This document shows, in pieces, positions 52,945 through 60,268 of a stretch of DNA of 64,000 nt. Origin of the DNA: an uncultured Candidatus Poseidoniales archaeon (GTDB taxonomy: Archaea > Thermoplasmatota > Poseidoniia > Poseidoniales > Poseidoniaceae). Where the stretch lies: NCBI GenBank assembly GCA_905182185.1, contig CAJJAP010000001.1, positions 75,167 to 139,166 on the forward strand, written 5' to 3'. Made by a program: the position numbers and the translations under genes. Within the stretch, counting starts at the first letter, position 1. Each line of letters opens with the position of its first letter. The notes beneath the pieces were generated by a model. That model searched no databases and was not told where the DNA came from. It saw nothing but the letters and a program-made list of their open reading frames with translations.

Positions 52945-55914
52945 TCAGTCAAAGAAATTTTCAAATTCATCGTCACTAATTGTTGACTTACGACGGTTCC
53001 TAGCAGAAATTACCCGCTTCAATCTCTTTCTTTTCTTCAGTATGAGTGGAATCAAAATAATACTTAACATTAGAATCGTAATGAGGGTCCCACCCGAATA
53101 GAGGAAGATCTCATCTTGCATTGAATCCTGTAAATCTCCTAACCATTGTACTCCAAGAGGGGGTTCTTCTGGTGTAGGTGGTACTGGGATGATATGTTGG
53201 TTATAGACCCACCATAGGTCTTCGATATGGACCCTATTTACATTACTAGATGGATAGGATGTCAAAGTGTTTTCATTTCCGACCCAATCAATAGGTGCAA
53301 GGATGTAATAGTATGTTCTGTAAGGTCTTATTCCATCGATTTCGGTTCCGCTTTGATTGAAGTATCCAGTTTCACCAGGAGTTGATTGGATGGCGCTAGA
53401 AATTGGTGTAATGAATCTCAAGTCTATATCGACCGGCCGTGACTCAACTCTGTATAGGTTCCAAGAAATTGGTCCACTCAATTCATCTTCAGGCCATATC
53501 CAAGTCAAACTTACTTCATAGCACATATTCCATTCTCTCGAAATATCATAACAATCACTTGAGTTGGTGAAATCATAATTTGAAACGAAATTAGAAATTG
53601 TGACAGCTGGGGGAATGGCATCACCACAAATCATTCCAGGAATACCGTTTACATTGGTTGTAATACTGGCTTTCTCGTAGTCCGGGTTTCCAGTTCTATC
53701 AGACGGCATTATTGCGTATGAGGCACAGTCGCCAGTTTGCAAATGAACAGGGTCAATCCAATTATTTGTATTGGTTGTGACAGTGGCAACCTTTGTTTGA
53801 AGAGTTAATTCTTCCCATACGAGAGGATTTATTCCACTGTCAGGGTCTGGGAAGTAAGTTGAACTGGATTCGGCGCCAACAATTTTGTATATCTGCCAAC
53901 CGCCCAAATATGGATTTGATAAATCTCCTGAAACTGACCAATTCAATTCAATCTGGCCGTCTTTGAGGAGAGTATTGTCCACATCTCCCAAAGAAACATT
54001 TGCTTCGGGTAAAACTCCTACGATTAGAATCGCCCCGTTGGAAACCATGCTAACTGTAAATGTGCCATCTTGATTATTTGTTAATTCATTAGGAGATTCA
54101 ATGAAGGACCAAACATTATCATTAATGGAATCTATTTGGCGAACATCAACAGTTGAGAGATTGATGTTAGATGGTAATAGGGCATTCATGTTGAGTGTAA
54201 ACTCCATTGATTCCATTCCAACATCAGCAGAACCATCTGCTTGTGACAATATGTCAAAAGACATCAACATCAATGGTTCTTGGCCAGAACCAACTCCATA
54301 ATTAACACCAAGTTTAGGCAGAATTGTTTCTGTTTCTAGATATGCTTCCGAACGTGTGATGGCATTCCCAGTGTAATATGGTTCATTACTGATGTCAATG
54401 TGATCGAATATTGTTATTTCTTCATGCACGGAATCAACTGTTCCGAAATCATCTATTACTCTAAGTGTAACCGTATGGTCACCTAATCCCAAAGTACTTC
54501 CACTGATGTTTAGAACTTGACCATATCCCAAGTTAATAATTCCAGAGACCCACCACGAATAATTTAGAGGCCCAGCAGCAGTAGTTCCAGTCTTAGCTAC
54601 CATCTCAATAGCATCACCAGTATCGTAGTTTCCATTGAAACTCTGTTGCTGTATTTCTGCTTTAATGTCGCCTGCAAGAATGTCAGCCTGTTCACTGATA
54701 ATATTATCTGAAGTTTTAGCGTCCTGGCCATCAAGGAAGTTATTAGGTGCAGAAATCTTTAGGATTCGATTATCCCCAGTCACCGTAATATTGAACTTAC
54801 AAACCTGACTTTGAGTTGGTATTAGTGATGTCACTAGACACTGTTCTTCCATTTTTAATTCACTACCTAGGTCAAACACTTCAAACGCTACAAAGAAGTT
54901 TTCAATCGTTTTATTACCTACATTTCTTACCTCAGAATAAACCATTTCATTTCCGAAATAATAGTTTTCCGAACTCGAGTCATGTGCCGGATACATAAAA
55001 ATAACTGCAGCATCAATAGTATCATCAATAATAATAGGTGTCGAAGTAATATCGTTGAAATCATTTAGATCGCTATAAGGAGTTCCAGTACTGTTGTACA
55101 AGCCCCATTTTAGAATATATGTTCCCGCAAATGGATAGTTAAACACAGGCATTTGGTAGCCAAAATCCATAACTACGCCCCATGAGTTCAATCCGGATTT
55201 GTATGAGTATGACTCATCGAGCATAACAGTTTCACCCTGGTCCCATAGTTGCCATCCAATGGTGGCATTGAAGTTACATGAACCACAACTATTGACAGCC
55301 GTTTTAGCCTTTAGAGTATAATTTGTGTTTGAATTTAGTATTTTTTGGCCATCATAGATTGCAAGACCTTCAATGTCATCATATGGTCTCCATGATTCAT
55401 CCACGCTCAAATCAACAAATGATTGTGATATGTTAAAATTATATTTCAATACATCATTACTAGTTACTTGGTCAGATACATCAAAGGAATATACCACGGT
55501 TACAATTCCTTCTGATCCAGATGGTGGGTTCCAAGTATTTACAGATGTGATATTGGAGTATTGTCCTTGAGGGATATTTGTCAGGGTGAACAGTCCTCTT
55601 GAATCATAGTTTGATTTACAGATCGGCCCATCTAAATCTCCTAAGCAAACATGCCAACGCATTAATCTATCTAATCCAGCAGAACTCAAGCCCTGATTTT
55701 TTATTTGAGTAGTGAATGTAAATGTATCGAATGATGAAGCCCAGATGTCTTGAGGGGGTGAAATTCCATCGGTAATAGCGAGGTCACCTGTTTCCGAAGC
55801 ACTAACGCCAGGTAGAGCGGTGAGGCCTCCCAGGGAAGAAAGAAGAAGCAAAAACACAAGGAACAAACTGCTACCTTTGGCCCCGTATTGATATGACTCC
55901 CGCTGCGACATCAT
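52945..55914 (-). CDS. Large surface protein with Ig/PKD-like repeats and C-terminal anchor
   Basis: A 989-residue secreted protein: a signal peptide (residues 13-40, ending near GVSAS), several beta-rich modules, a PKD-like module near residue 440 (LNYSWWVSG then HTVTLRVIDDFG), an FN3-like stretch near 650-750, then a single membrane helix near residue 943 (LITILMLSIILIPLIL) and a basic tail. Paired Cys are scattered through it. It may be an S-layer-like or adhesive protein; the architecture is clear, the ligand is not. It reads away from the pilin-like gene, with a TATA-like site between. Confidence 0.8.
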   Translation of the reverse strand: MMSQRESYQYGAKGSSLFLVFLLLLSSLGGLTALPGVSASETGDLAITDGISPPQDIWASSFDTFTFTTQIKNQGLSSAGLDRLMRWHVCLGDLDGPICKSNYDSRGLFTLTNIPQGQYSNITSVNTWNPPSGSEGIVTVVYSFDVSDQVTSNDVLKYNFNISQSFVDLSVDESWRPYDDIEGLAIYDGQKILNSNTNYTLKAKTAVNSCGSCNFNATIGWQLWDQGETVMLDESYSYKSGLNSWGVVMDFGYQMPVFNYPFAGTYILKWGLYNSTGTPYSDLNDFNDITSTPIIIDDTIDAAVIFMYPAHDSSSENYYFGNEMVYSEVRNVGNKTIENFFVAFEVFDLGSELKMEEQCLVTSLIPTQSQVCKFNITVTGDNRILKISAPNNFLDGQDAKTSDNIISEQADILAGDIKAEIQQQSFNGNYDTGDAIEMVAKTGTTAAGPLNYSWWVSGIINLGYGQVLNISGSTLGLGDHTVTLRVIDDFGTVDSVHEEITIFDHIDISNEPYYTGNAITRSEAYLETETILPKLGVNYGVGSGQEPLMLMSFDILSQADGSADVGMESMEFTLNMNALLPSNINLSTVDVRQIDSINDNVWSFIESPNELTNNQDGTFTVSMVSNGAILIVGVLPEANVSLGDVDNTLLKDGQIELNWSVSGDLSNPYLGGWQIYKIVGAESSSTYFPDPDSGINPLVWEELTLQTKVATVTTNTNNWIDPVHLQTGDCASYAIMPSDRTGNPDYEKASITTNVNGIPGMICGDAIPPAVTISNFVSNYDFTNSSDCYDISREWNMCYEVSLTWIWPEDELSGPISWNLYRVESRPVDIDLRFITPISSAIQSTPGETGYFNQSGTEIDGIRPYRTYYYILAPIDWVGNENTLTSYPSSNVNRVHIEDLWWVYNQHIIPVPPTPEEPPLGVQWLGDLQDSMQDEIFLYSGGTLITILMLSIILIPLILKKRKRLKRVISARNRRKSTISDDEFENFFD

Positions 55915-56093: not shown

Positions 56094-57170
56094 ATGCAGG
56101 GAACCGTTTACTCTCACTCAGAGAGAGAAGATGGCGCGATTACTGCGGTAATTGAATTCCTTACAGCCTTTGTATTATTCTTGATGATCTTGACTGCATT
56201 TCTTTCCCTGGCACAATTAGAAATGGGCTCAAATGACCCTTCCTTGGACCGACTAGATGGTGCCGCAGTTCTTGGCATGGACCGTATTAGTTCGGGCGAA
56301 GGATGGTTCGTTCCTATTCAAAATGAAGTATTTGATTATGACAATTCAACTGCGAACTGGCATTCATTTTCAGCCAAACAATTGGATTCGGGGAGAGTCC
56401 AAGCGGGATTGATAGTGGATGGCAAAATAAATGAAACAAAAATCAATGCTTTGCATAATTTAAGCGAAGATGGTTTTGCCATCGGAATCGGATTGGATGA
56501 GGGCTACAGTTTCCACCTCAATATTGTAATTACTGAAAGTAACGATGTCCTACGAATGGGCCAAGTATTATTTGATGGGGGTACAGAAAAACAAGGTACT
56601 CGTTCATCATCGACTTCTTATCGCTATTTCTATCAAAATGACGAAACGATCCAAGTAATCCTCGAAGTGCATGATGGGGGGCGTAAGGAGAATCAATTGC
56701 AAATCACAGAAATCCATCCACGTCCAACGCAGTTCGGTCCTGAATGGATTGAAATATACAACCCAAATGACTTCGCAGTATCTTTGTATGGGTGGTCACT
56801 TACTCATACCGCTGGTTCTTCAGTTTCAAATTTACTTCTTAAAGATGGTATAATTACAGGTAAGGCAACTGCAATATTTACAGGCGACCCCTCTAGTCAA
56901 GCCGCTGGAAATGCAAGCGAAGTGATTGATTTGGGGGTTGACGGTTTCCTCGGTGTCGGCTCAATTGATATTTTAGCAAATGGTAATGGGCAATTGGCTC
57001 TAAAGTACACACAAATATTCGAATCACGTCCAGTGGACATCCAGCGAATTAAATGGGGTGGGGACACAGGATTGTTTTTGATAAACGGTCAATCAATTGT
57101 TTGGGATGGTACCTCAATGTTTGATTCTACTTCATGGTCAATTTCAGATGAACCAACTCCAGGAAATTAA
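56094..57170 (+). CDS. Archaeal pilin/archaellin-like protein with lamin-tail domain
   Basis: A 358-residue protein whose N-terminus looks like a class III (type IV pilin-like) signal: SEREDGAITAVIEF followed by a long hydrophobic helix (FLTAFVLFLMILTAFLSL). A soluble domain follows. Near residues 205-285 comes a lamin-tail (LTD) domain: ITEIHPRPTQFGPEWIEIYN, then SLYGWSLTH and ATAIFTGDPS. A pilin-like membrane anchor with LTD is unusual. The frame opens at TTG 56067, but ATG 56094 is a proper start. It is followed by three KaiC-like genes. Confidence 0.72.
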   Translation: MQGTVYSHSEREDGAITAVIEFLTAFVLFLMILTAFLSLAQLEMGSNDPSLDRLDGAAVLGMDRISSGEGWFVPIQNEVFDYDNSTANWHSFSAKQLDSGRVQAGLIVDGKINETKINALHNLSEDGFAIGIGLDEGYSFHLNIVITESNDVLRMGQVLFDGGTEKQGTRSSSTSYRYFYQNDETIQVILEVHDGGRKENQLQITEIHPRPTQFGPEWIEIYNPNDFAVSLYGWSLTHTAGSSVSNLLLKDGIITGKATAIFTGDPSSQAAGNASEVIDLGVDGFLGVGSIDILANGNGQLALKYTQIFESRPVDIQRIKWGGDTGLFLINGQSIVWDGTSMFDSTSWSISDEPTPGN

Positions 57171-57262
57171 TGTTTGAATATTTCACATTCAAATGAGCCA
57201 CTAACTCAACATTTTTGGGCGCACAGTTCATCAACCCAAAGCCCTTCGTCGTATTTGTTCCC

Positions 57263-58045
57263 ATGCAACCTGCAGCAGTTTACACCCGTGATAGATGCAT
57301 AACAGGCATCCATGGATTAGATGAAATCCTCCGCGGCGGGATACCATATGGTTCAACTGTACTAGCATCTGGCACTTGTGGTTCTGGAAAGACTACGTTG
57401 GCGATGGAATTTTTGGTTAGAGGGGCAATTGCAGGCGAGGCATGTGCGCATTTCACTGCTACCGAGCCATCTGTAAAGTTGTTAGAAAACATCCGCCAAT
57501 TTGAATTCTTTGACATGAATATGGTCGATACCGGATTGATCAATGTTTTTGATATGGATGTATTATATTCTTGGTTGGGTTTGGAAAAATCATCTTTCGA
57601 TTTGGATGATGTTCACGCTCTAATCAAAGCGATTGTAGATATTGTCAATACAATTGGTGTCACTCGTTTAGTAATTGATTCAGTTACAACACTTTGTTAC
57701 AAGATTAAATCCGAACAACTAATCAGAGATTTCCTTTTCACATTGGGAAAGAAATTATCAACTTTAGGTTGTACTACTATACTAATTTCTGAAATTACTT
57801 CCGCTACAGAGAATGCTCATTGGTCGTCTTTCGGTGTTGAAGAAGCAATTGCTGATGGAATTGTCGTTATGGGGGATGTTGAACGAATGGGGCATCTTCT
57901 AAGGTTTTTACAAGTGGTAAAGATGCGTGGAACTTCACACTCTAGGGCAAAGCATGCAATTGAATTAACCCCGATTGGTGTGATGCTAACTCCAATGCTC
58001 AAATGGGGCGCTCAAGGCGATACAAAAAGCAGATGGGGTGCTTAA
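57263..58045 (+). CDS. KaiC/FlaH-like RecA-superfamily ATPase (intact P-loop)
   Basis: A 260-residue single-domain KaiC-like protein. It has the KaiC-type opening ITGIHGLDEILRGGIPYGSTV, an intact Walker A in GTCGSGKTTLAMEF near residue 36, and a Walker B-like strand LVIDSVTTL near residue 150. Such proteins act as ATP-driven switches or motor accessories (for example FlaH/ArlH). Three related genes in a row, starting with this one and following a pilin-like gene, suggest a joint complex. Only this copy has the catalytic Lys. ATG 57263 is preferred over TTG 57215. Confidence 0.82.
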   Translation: MQPAAVYTRDRCITGIHGLDEILRGGIPYGSTVLASGTCGSGKTTLAMEFLVRGAIAGEACAHFTATEPSVKLLENIRQFEFFDMNMVDTGLINVFDMDVLYSWLGLEKSSFDLDDVHALIKAIVDIVNTIGVTRLVIDSVTTLCYKIKSEQLIRDFLFTLGKKLSTLGCTTILISEITSATENAHWSSFGVEEAIADGIVVMGDVERMGHLLRFLQVVKMRGTSHSRAKHAIELTPIGVMLTPMLKWGAQGDTKSRWGA

Positions 58046-58047
58046 TA

Positions 58048-58632
58048 ATGTTCGAACTCGACCAAAGAATCGCAGAACAACTCACGGAAGTTGCTCTAAG
58101 CAGTTCAGTTCAAGTTCGCTGTGGTAACTCAAATGCATTTATGGTAACTGCTAGTACTATGGTTCCATTGATGCAAATGTTTGAAATGGGTGGGGTTTAT
58201 ATTTCTGGAAGCAGAAGTGCAATGGAAATGATTGACGCATTTGAGACCATTGGAATAGATGTATCCAATATACAATTTATTGATTTAGTGTCCTCTGGCG
58301 TACTAGGGGGTACAAATACAACCAGAAAGAATATCCATTATGTAGATTCGCCAATTATGCTGGAGTCGATATTACTTAGATCACTCTACCTATTGAGGAC
58401 CACAACCCTTGAACGCAATTTCGTAATATTGGATAGTGTGAATGCATTAGCGATATACAATGATGATCGAATGCTCGCAGAGTATCTTCATACATTTATT
58501 AACACTTTTAGGCAAAGAGAAGTTCTTTCAGTAATATTGAATGTTCCCGACCAAACTCCTCCGCTGGTATTATCAAATCTTGATTTATACTGCACAGACC
58601 TAATAGACAGAGGGCAAGTCGTAATTCATTGA
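58048..58632 (+). CDS. RecA/KaiC-fold protein without P-loop
   Basis: A 194-residue protein whose second half looks like a KaiC/RecA core (NFVILDSVNALAIYNDD as Walker B-like strand near residue 130, then FINTFRQREVLSVIL). The Walker A loop is missing: the N-terminal part keeps the strand order but shows no GxxxxGK. It starts two bases after the KaiC-like ATPase stop. It is likely a non-catalytic partner. The frame also opens at TTG-type codons upstream, inside the previous gene; ATG 58048 is the sensible start. Confidence 0.72.
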   Translation: MFELDQRIAEQLTEVALSSSVQVRCGNSNAFMVTASTMVPLMQMFEMGGVYISGSRSAMEMIDAFETIGIDVSNIQFIDLVSSGVLGGTNTTRKNIHYVDSPIMLESILLRSLYLLRTTTLERNFVILDSVNALAIYNDDRMLAEYLHTFINTFRQREVLSVILNVPDQTPPLVLSNLDLYCTDLIDRGQVVIH

Positions 58633-58633
58633 G

Positions 58634-59446
58634 ATGATTGTTATGAATAAGCAATATACATTCAAGGAAGAAGACGAAGAGTTCTTTGGAGGAGTAGGTT
58701 CCTTCGGAGTTCCAAAATTCGATTTAGAAATGCATGGTGGAGTTCCGCGAGGATTCACAATGGTCAGTTTTACTGATACCGGTTCAGGTTCAGAATTATT
58801 TGGCAAGCAATTCACATCTCCAGCAGAAGAATCAGAAAATACACTATATGTTTCCACCAATGAAGGGCGTCAAGAAATAATCCGTGTTTTTACTAAGTAT
58901 GGATGGCCTTTAGATATCAATGTTAGAACCATTGGTGAAGAATATAATAGTGAAGTATTGGAAAAGGAACTTCTGGCAAGTCGGTTTCGACTTGAGGGCT
59001 TTAGATTAGAAGATATTCAACGCTTAGCACAAACAAGGTTCGTAGATGAAAAGCACCATGATTACCTAACAGAGGTAACGAATGAAATCATGTCACTCGG
59101 GCCATACTTTAGAGTAGTAATTGATAATTTAGATTTCTTCTTACAGAGAGAAGATAATACCAAAGTTGTAGCTATGGTGAGAATGTTACAAGCGCATGCA
59201 CAAATGATGCGTGGGCTAGTGTTGATCAATATCTCCAACGAAGGATTAAATCCTACTATCAAGCAAGAATTGTCATCTATTGCCGATATGGTGCTTTCAT
59301 TCAAAGTTAGAACCATTGGAACAGATTTTGAAACATCTATGATCGTTTCAAAATTCCGTAACGCTCCAGAAAATTTGAAAATTCTAGTTTTCAGAGTAAC
59401 TCCTGCGGAAGGTATTACTCCAGAAACAGTAGAACGTATTTCTTGA
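58634..59446 (+). CDS. KaiC-like protein with degenerate P-loop
   Basis: A 270-residue KaiC-like protein. The opening FGVPKFDLEMHGGVPRGFTM matches the KaiC start, but the P-loop position reads DTGSGSELFGKQF and lacks the Lys-Thr/Ser pair at the normal place. The Walker B-like strand is FRVVIDNLDFFL near residue 155. With its two neighbours it makes a three-gene family in which only the first is expected to hydrolyse ATP. An internal ATG at 58643 is the alternative start. Confidence 0.72.
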   Translation: MIVMNKQYTFKEEDEEFFGGVGSFGVPKFDLEMHGGVPRGFTMVSFTDTGSGSELFGKQFTSPAEESENTLYVSTNEGRQEIIRVFTKYGWPLDINVRTIGEEYNSEVLEKELLASRFRLEGFRLEDIQRLAQTRFVDEKHHDYLTEVTNEIMSLGPYFRVVIDNLDFFLQREDNTKVVAMVRMLQAHAQMMRGLVLINISNEGLNPTIKQELSSIADMVLSFKVRTIGTDFETSMIVSKFRNAPENLKILVFRVTPAEGITPETVERIS

Positions 59447-59524: not shown

Positions 59525-60268
59525 ATGGCTACACGTGATGCAACTGGTGGTTTTGACCCCTCGGGCATTGATGAAGAAGCATGGAACGATTTAGAGTTGC
59601 AACTTGAAGCAACAATTCCCAATTATGACAAAGTCAACAAATTAATGACTTTTGGACAAGACAAAAGATGGCGCAGGAATGTTCGTAATCATGCTACAGA
59701 AGGTATGAATGTTCTAGAAGTTGGATGTGGTCCAGGTTCTTTTGCGGAAGATTTAGTGGGCCTTGAAGTCACATGCCTTGACCCATCAGCGCTGATGTTG
59801 AAATTTGCTAAAGAGCGTGTCGATGCAGCGCGTAACTCTCGTGAGGAATCCCCTGCTAATTATGTGGAAGCGATCGCTGAAAACATTCCTTTGCCAGATG
59901 ACACATTCGACATGGTTTTCTGTTTGTTTTCATTTAGAGATTTTAAGGATAAAAAGCAGGGATTGGCTGAGATATATAGAGTTCTAAAACCAGGTGGCCA
60001 ACTAGTGATTTGTGATGCCGGCAAAGCAAATTGGTTACATGGTTTTTTTGGAGCGATTTGGATGGCGACAGTCGTTCAATGGATGGCGCGTTTTGTCACC
60101 AAGGATAAAAACCACCCTTGGAAAGGGTTAGCCCGAACTTACACTCATTATGGTAGCAATGGATATTATCGTAAAATGATGAAAGAAGTAGGCTACAATG
60201 ACGTACAAGGGCGCTTACTTCTACCGTTTGGAATGGCCAGTAGATTCCGTGGTAGAAAACCACAATGA
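59525..60268 (+). CDS. Class I SAM-dependent methyltransferase, UbiE/MenG-like
   Basis: A 247-residue methyltransferase. SAM motif I is VLEVGCGPGSFAEDL near residue 63, followed by acidic VTCLDPS, LPDDTFDMVFCLFSFRD near residue 124 and RVLKPGGQLVICD near residue 152. The overall order resembles UbiE/MenG quinone methyltransferases; the internal KLMTFGQDKRWRRNV also fits that family. A role in menaquinone or another lipid quinone is plausible but not proven. Confidence 0.82.
   Translation: MATRDATGGFDPSGIDEEAWNDLELQLEATIPNYDKVNKLMTFGQDKRWRRNVRNHATEGMNVLEVGCGPGSFAEDLVGLEVTCLDPSALMLKFAKERVDAARNSREESPANYVEAIAENIPLPDDTFDMVFCLFSFRDFKDKKQGLAEIYRVLKPGGQLVICDAGKANWLHGFFGAIWMATVVQWMARFVTKDKNHPWKGLARTYTHYGSNGYYRKMMKEVGYNDVQGRLLLPFGMASRFRGRKPQ

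Follow-up and report, generated by a model that had tools for sequence, protein, structure and literature searches.

The window analyzed here is a whole stretch of 64,000 nucleotides from an uncultured Candidatus Poseidoniales archaeon (G000:C1, from an assembly that is 63% complete). It harbors a cassette of four genes: a type IV pilin-like membrane protein with a lamin-tail (LTD) domain is followed by three genes of KaiC ancestry, KaiC1, KaiC2 and KaiC3. Judged from sequence comparison, these three genes (the triad) are an ancient set, kept across the whole phylum Thermoplasmatota. Its spread over the phylum and its association with type IV pili, as opposed to the swimming filament, make a control switch for surface pili its probable role. 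With moderate confidence, we read the triad as a complex in the cytoplasm that controls a type IV pilus; KaiC1 would be an ArlH-like switch and the LTD protein the cognate minor pilin or adhesin. The locus comprises the following features:

52945-55914, minus strand: divergent surface protein with a C-terminal membrane anchor, 989 aa; a conserved neighbor
56094-57170, plus strand: LTD pilin-like membrane protein (P0001), 358 aa; the lamin-tail domain is C-terminal
57263-58045, plus strand: KaiC1, KaiC-family ATP-binding protein with an intact P-loop, 260 aa
58048-58632, plus strand: KaiC2, a degenerate short protein with KaiC fold and no P-loop, 194 aa
58634-59446, plus strand: KaiC3, KaiC-family pseudo-ATPase, 270 aa; P-loop Lys lost, KxRN finger kept
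59525-60268: methyltransferase gene, downstream of KaiC3

An earlier note on this DNA had reported the four genes of the cassette, and all are open frames where it placed them. Its spacings of 2 and 1 bases between the KaiC genes are correct; the gap between the LTD gene and KaiC1, given as 93 bases, counts 92. By comparison with relatives, KaiC3 more likely starts at 58643 than at 58634. The genes downstream of the methyltransferase are read as an A-type ATPase operon.

KaiC1 matches PF06745 with 178.7 bits (1.6e-52, cut-off 26.6) and contains the P-loop GSGKTT, the only intact one of the three, as had been proposed. KaiC3 also exceeds the cut-off (60.3 vs. 26.6 bits), and its profile comparison with KaiC1 gives 9e-15. 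KaiC2 remains under it (21.4 vs. 26.6 bits); its profile comparison with KaiC1 gives an E-value of 3.5e-5 and a probability of 72%, and 50 of the 50 Foldseek matches listed are KaiC or FlaH. The KaiC2 model was built from a shallow alignment and is modest (mean pLDDT 62.6, pTM 0.65). Because its profile matches that of KaiC1 and its modelled fold matches KaiC and FlaH, KaiC2 is regarded as a degenerate KaiC relative; an origin unrelated to KaiC is ruled out by the fold search, with the caveat of the modest model. The KaiC ancestry that the note had assigned to the second and third genes is thereby upheld, for KaiC3 by the PF06745 score and for KaiC2 by profile and fold comparison. Neither has a P-loop or its Lys, and the strands VILDS and VVIDN are present, again as described. 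Among KaiC3 relatives, the P-loop Lys is lost except in families f3 and f12, and the next Thr/Ser is always lost. KaiC3 K240-x-R242 lies at the position of KaiC K224-x-R226 (K in 43/46 and R in 41/46 sequences). The short KaiC2 contains neither P-loop nor K-x-R finger; its invariants in 49 sequences are the SPxxLE motif and D129.

Among solved structures, those of cyanobacterial KaiC come closest to KaiC1 and KaiC3. In KaiC, the ATP phosphates are ringed by the P-loop K52, E77 (the general base), E78 (metal) and E183, and the adjacent subunit contacts them through K224 and R226 (PMC2777353). In 51 KaiC1 sequences, K43, T44, Thr67, E68, D139, E177, K220, R222 and H226 are invariant. The ATP ligands of KaiC1 are those of cyanobacterial KaiC except at E77, with which Thr67 aligns: the P-loop is present, and the catalytic Glu pair is incomplete. 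The genome's own ArlH likewise lacks the general-base Glu (TTELT) and, as in KaiC1, combines an intact P-loop with TE in place of the EE pair of KaiC. The comparison with ArlH that the earlier note had drawn is supported. ArlH binds ATP, does not hydrolyze it and autophosphorylates (PMC8978795). Because the general-base Glu is missing, as in the genome's own ArlH, KaiC1 is likelier a switch than the motor for which it had been taken.

The phylum survey covered 390 genomes of Thermoplasmatota, with KaiC1 relatives taken at E<1e-60. KaiC1 relatives occur in 178 of these genomes and KaiC3 in 182: both are present in 166, one only in 12 and 16 (28 discordant) and neither in 196. Within the 51 loci examined in detail, 48 have matches to all three KaiC genes, and the order KaiC1-KaiC2-KaiC3 is kept with its strand in 47 of the 51, over 17 families; the frames in the conserved loci mostly overlap or touch. 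This arrangement is not due to chance, because it is conserved over great distances. Family f1 is taken as Poseidoniaceae and f2 as the other Poseidoniales family, because the window's assembly is close to Candidatus Poseidoniaceae ANT-132 (L118); further families are given by number only. In the genus of the window the four genes are kept together with their surroundings; in f2 the flanks differ and the four genes remain together. Their order is fixed among the Poseidoniales carriers examined, so that the synteny on which the earlier reading depended is confirmed there (f1, f2). The 80 closest loci, among the matches listed, are all assigned to Poseidoniales/Poseidoniaceae or to unclassified Euryarchaeota. 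Two families, f20 (L090:10282-11397) and f13 (L116:3733-4872), carry a tandem MetOD1/ATC-hydrolase-like protein between KaiC2 and KaiC3, possibly a sensor module for the triad. In f7 (L093, L112), the neighborhood of KaiC1 contains another KaiC1-like gene in place of KaiC2 and KaiC3.

The LTD domain of P0001 scores 40.1 bits (Pfam cut-off 34.3) and is its sole Pfam match; no NCBIfam profile matches the protein, the Pilin_N and archaellin N-terminal profiles included. In the AF2 model (mean pLDDT 80.2), an N-terminal hydrophobic helix (residues 14-43) precedes a β-rich head that includes a lamin-like Ig domain. The top 13 Foldseek matches of this model are lamins (Ig-like domains), and the Haloferax pilus 8fj5 and archaella rank far below them. 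The best-conserved part of P0001 is the N-terminal helix. A candidate junction between leader and helix reads EDG/AITAVIEF in the window and RRDKKG/ISRIVEF in the f20 relative, with E21 invariant. The succession of hydrophobic helix and LTD domain agrees with the first description of P0001 as a type IV pilin-like protein with a lamin tail, and the protein is probably a minor pilin or a pilus-associated adhesin. The LTD gene is part of the cassette only in f1, f2 and f20; in other families the KaiC trio stands alone or beside pilin genes.

The association with pili is seen in whole genomes. The pilus ATPase of the 418-aa type (called at E<1e-80) occurs in 95 genomes, and all 95 have KaiC1 or KaiC3; conversely, 165 of the 166 genomes with KaiC1 and KaiC3 have a pilus/archaellum-type ATPase, both counts being phylogenetically uncorrected. 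The exception is G123, which is 97% complete and contains KaiC1 and KaiC3 but no pilus ATPase match. Pili do not need the triad, because 131 genomes with a pilus-type ATPase lack KaiC1, KaiC3 or both. In Poseidoniales, the co-loss is confounded with genome reduction. A profile of the LTD pilin that includes its N-terminal part matches in 15/15 chosen genomes with the 418-aa-type ATPase vs. 0/20 without it, kinship being uncorrected; the match in G028 is solely via the LTD domain of a larger protein, and in some families it is a short protein without LTD domain.

Gene neighborhoods point in the same direction. A Pilin_N gene lies directly 3′ of KaiC3 in f2 (L037, L038, L099, L106) and in genus g17 of f1 (L101), and one or two such genes lie just downstream of KaiC3 in f42, f45, f52 and f53. 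Because there are only 3-5 Pilin_N genes per genome, chance adjacency is roughly estimated at ~1% per lineage; the six families are not fully independent, because some may be close relatives. In f2 the cassette has a gene for an archaeal prepilin peptidase as its neighbor, and in f7 so does KaiC1 (divergently in L093). In most of the 17 families, the neighbors of the triad are unrelated housekeeping genes, and a search across families for conserved neighbors other than pilus genes gave none that was convincing. Downstream of the triad, f2 has pilin and EPSP synthase genes whose relatives in the window's genome are on contig C4, at ~6 kb from a pilus ATPase of 418 aa whose T2SSF platform is split. 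In f2, the 3′ neighbors of the 418-aa ATPase locus are the methyltransferase and ATPase-operon genes found 3′ of the cassette in the window. A single inversion of about 75 kb would explain the maps of both families. A single pilus operon is ruled out: the 418-aa ATPase locus lies elsewhere, about 75 kb from the cassette where both are on one contig. The EPSP synthase gene of the window's genome appears to be split over two frames (L032:202-1660; 440-1660 and 202-429), by a frameshift or an assembly error. In f12, two copies of the 418-aa-type ATPase are apparently joined in an 862-aa frame (L215:3648-6236, G049:C40).

In the proposed mechanism, KaiC1 would bind ATP and switch state, by binding or by autophosphorylation as in ArlH, and would do no motor work. 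KaiC3, having lost its own ATP site and kept the K-x-R finger, would pack beside KaiC1 and complete the KaiC1 site, and KaiC2, with neither site nor finger, may serve as adaptor or cap. By docking on the ATPase and platform of the pilus, the complex would gate the assembly of the pilus or the choice of pilin. The analysis directly supports the homology, the conserved order of the genes, their co-occurrence with genes of the pilus and the pattern of motifs lost and kept; that the proteins form a complex, that it docks on the pilus machine and in which direction control runs are what we infer from these. On the simplest reading, the proteins would form a hetero-oligomer with KaiC3 completing the site of KaiC1, which fits the finger that KaiC3 keeps without a P-loop. 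Its fullest form is put forward tentatively and as rather doubtful: a phylum-wide hetero-oligomeric KaiC of one ATP-binding subunit and two obligate pseudo-ATPases, whose composite sites would use the KaiC3 finger, acting as a three-part switch or timer of the pilus. If true, this would be a heteromeric KaiC, in contrast to the homohexameric KaiC of cyanobacteria.

The triad may instead be a general KaiC signaling hub, that is, a sensory or timing regulator with several targets, of which pili would be one output, reached via transcription or phosphorylation and not by docking. Such a hub would suit the lineages in which no pilus gene adjoins the triad, and the insert in f13 and f20, a likely ligand-binding module, would be at home in it; archaeal KaiC proteins have been described as regulators, e.g., CirA in Haloferax (PMC13286277). 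It leaves unexplained the repeated adjacency of pilin and prepilin peptidase genes and the fixed LTD pilin of Poseidoniales, and we regard it as possible but on the unlikely side. A role away from the surface (e.g., in DNA or membrane housekeeping), with the pilin neighbors coincidental, seems improbable: RecA-fold proteins have many roles and most families have no pilus-gene neighbors, but Pilin_N genes adjoin the triad in six families at only 3-5 genes per genome, and the LTD pilin and the peptidase are linked to it as well.

The archaellum was the remaining candidate. Its arl locus lies on another contig than the window (G000:C8, L034) and encodes an archaellin, ArlH (5.7e-53, 180 bits) and ArlI (666 bits, above cut-off); the triad is encoded outside the arl operon and not beside arlI/arlJ. 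Against the NCBIfam ArlH equivalog (cut-off 215 bits), KaiC1 scores 38, KaiC3 50.2 and the genome's own ArlH 180. Genera g4 and g20 of f2 carry ArlI and lack the triad; the converse holds for G027, G031 and G032. Absences may be false in draft genomes, but the pattern recurs, with several genomes of the first kind and three of the second. It is highly improbable that the triad is an ArlH-type archaellum part encoded away from the arl locus, for although this genome has an archaellum, KaiC3 finds its best NCBIfam match in ArlH (2.6e-13) and KaiC1 shares the TE motif, the arl locus has an ArlH of its own (5.7e-53) and, in Poseidoniales, archaellum without triad and triad without archaellum both occur. 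As an archaellum component the triad is rejected on account of this ArlH and of the dissociation in both directions.

ArlH (FlaH), like the triad proteins, belongs to the KaiC family, has a single domain and is associated with a type IV pilus-like machine. The triad differs in having three proteins, two of them without an ATP site, in lying outside the arl operon and in scoring far under the ArlH cut-off. Cyanobacterial KaiC is a two-domain homohexamer, whereas each of the three triad proteins has one domain and is encoded separately, and two of them lack the P-loop. A 2017 article by Makarova and colleagues (mBio) reportedly proposed KaiC hubs that include inactivated homologues. The KaiC families arCOG01171, 01174 and 01175 are encoded near archaeal type IV pilus genes and were proposed as regulators (Makarova, Koonin and Albers, 2016, PMC4858521); the systems described in the available part of that article are single KaiC ATPases or KaiC with a DEATH-like partner, in contrast to the two pseudo-ATPases and LTD pilin found here. 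Because this link between KaiC families and archaeal pili was reported in 2016 (PMC4858521), the cassette is not wholly undescribed in kind. A search of the available papers found no account of the triad or of the LTD pilin; there may be overlap with the 2016 supplementary tables and the 2017 work on inactivated KaiC. The CdiP pilus of Cuniculiplasma, a member of the same phylum, has its platform protein split in two genes beside that of its ATPase, an arrangement shared with the 418-aa-type locus, and pilins encoded far from the machine; the available part of that report describes no KaiC partner, unlike the triad-linked pili (PMC12448462). The Poseidoniales archaellum was interpreted in the main genomic survey, by Rinke and colleagues, as a likely adhesion device for particle attachment (PMC6461757). 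The cassette suggests that Marine Group II archaea, which are uncultured and abundant in the surface ocean, possess a second pilus system, inherited separately and controlled by a three-part module of its own. How ATP-binding and dead paralogues divide the work of a KaiC-type assembly can be tested on it, and the role of ArlH, still unsettled, gains a simple point of comparison.

The giant anchored surface protein reported beside the cassette is indeed divergent from it (989 aa, 52945-55914, minus strand) and has no Pfam match. It occupies the same position in the f1 loci and in the f2 loci L035, L038, L098 and L099; this divergent place is kept in f1 and in most f2 loci, at identities down to about 26%. 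Still larger frames of ~4,500 aa with a Pilin_N domain occur elsewhere (G000:C8:86096, G054:C1:1608215, G032:C7:154216, G039:C22:24960) and, from their predicted translations, would be giant pilin-headed surface proteins kept across Poseidoniales.
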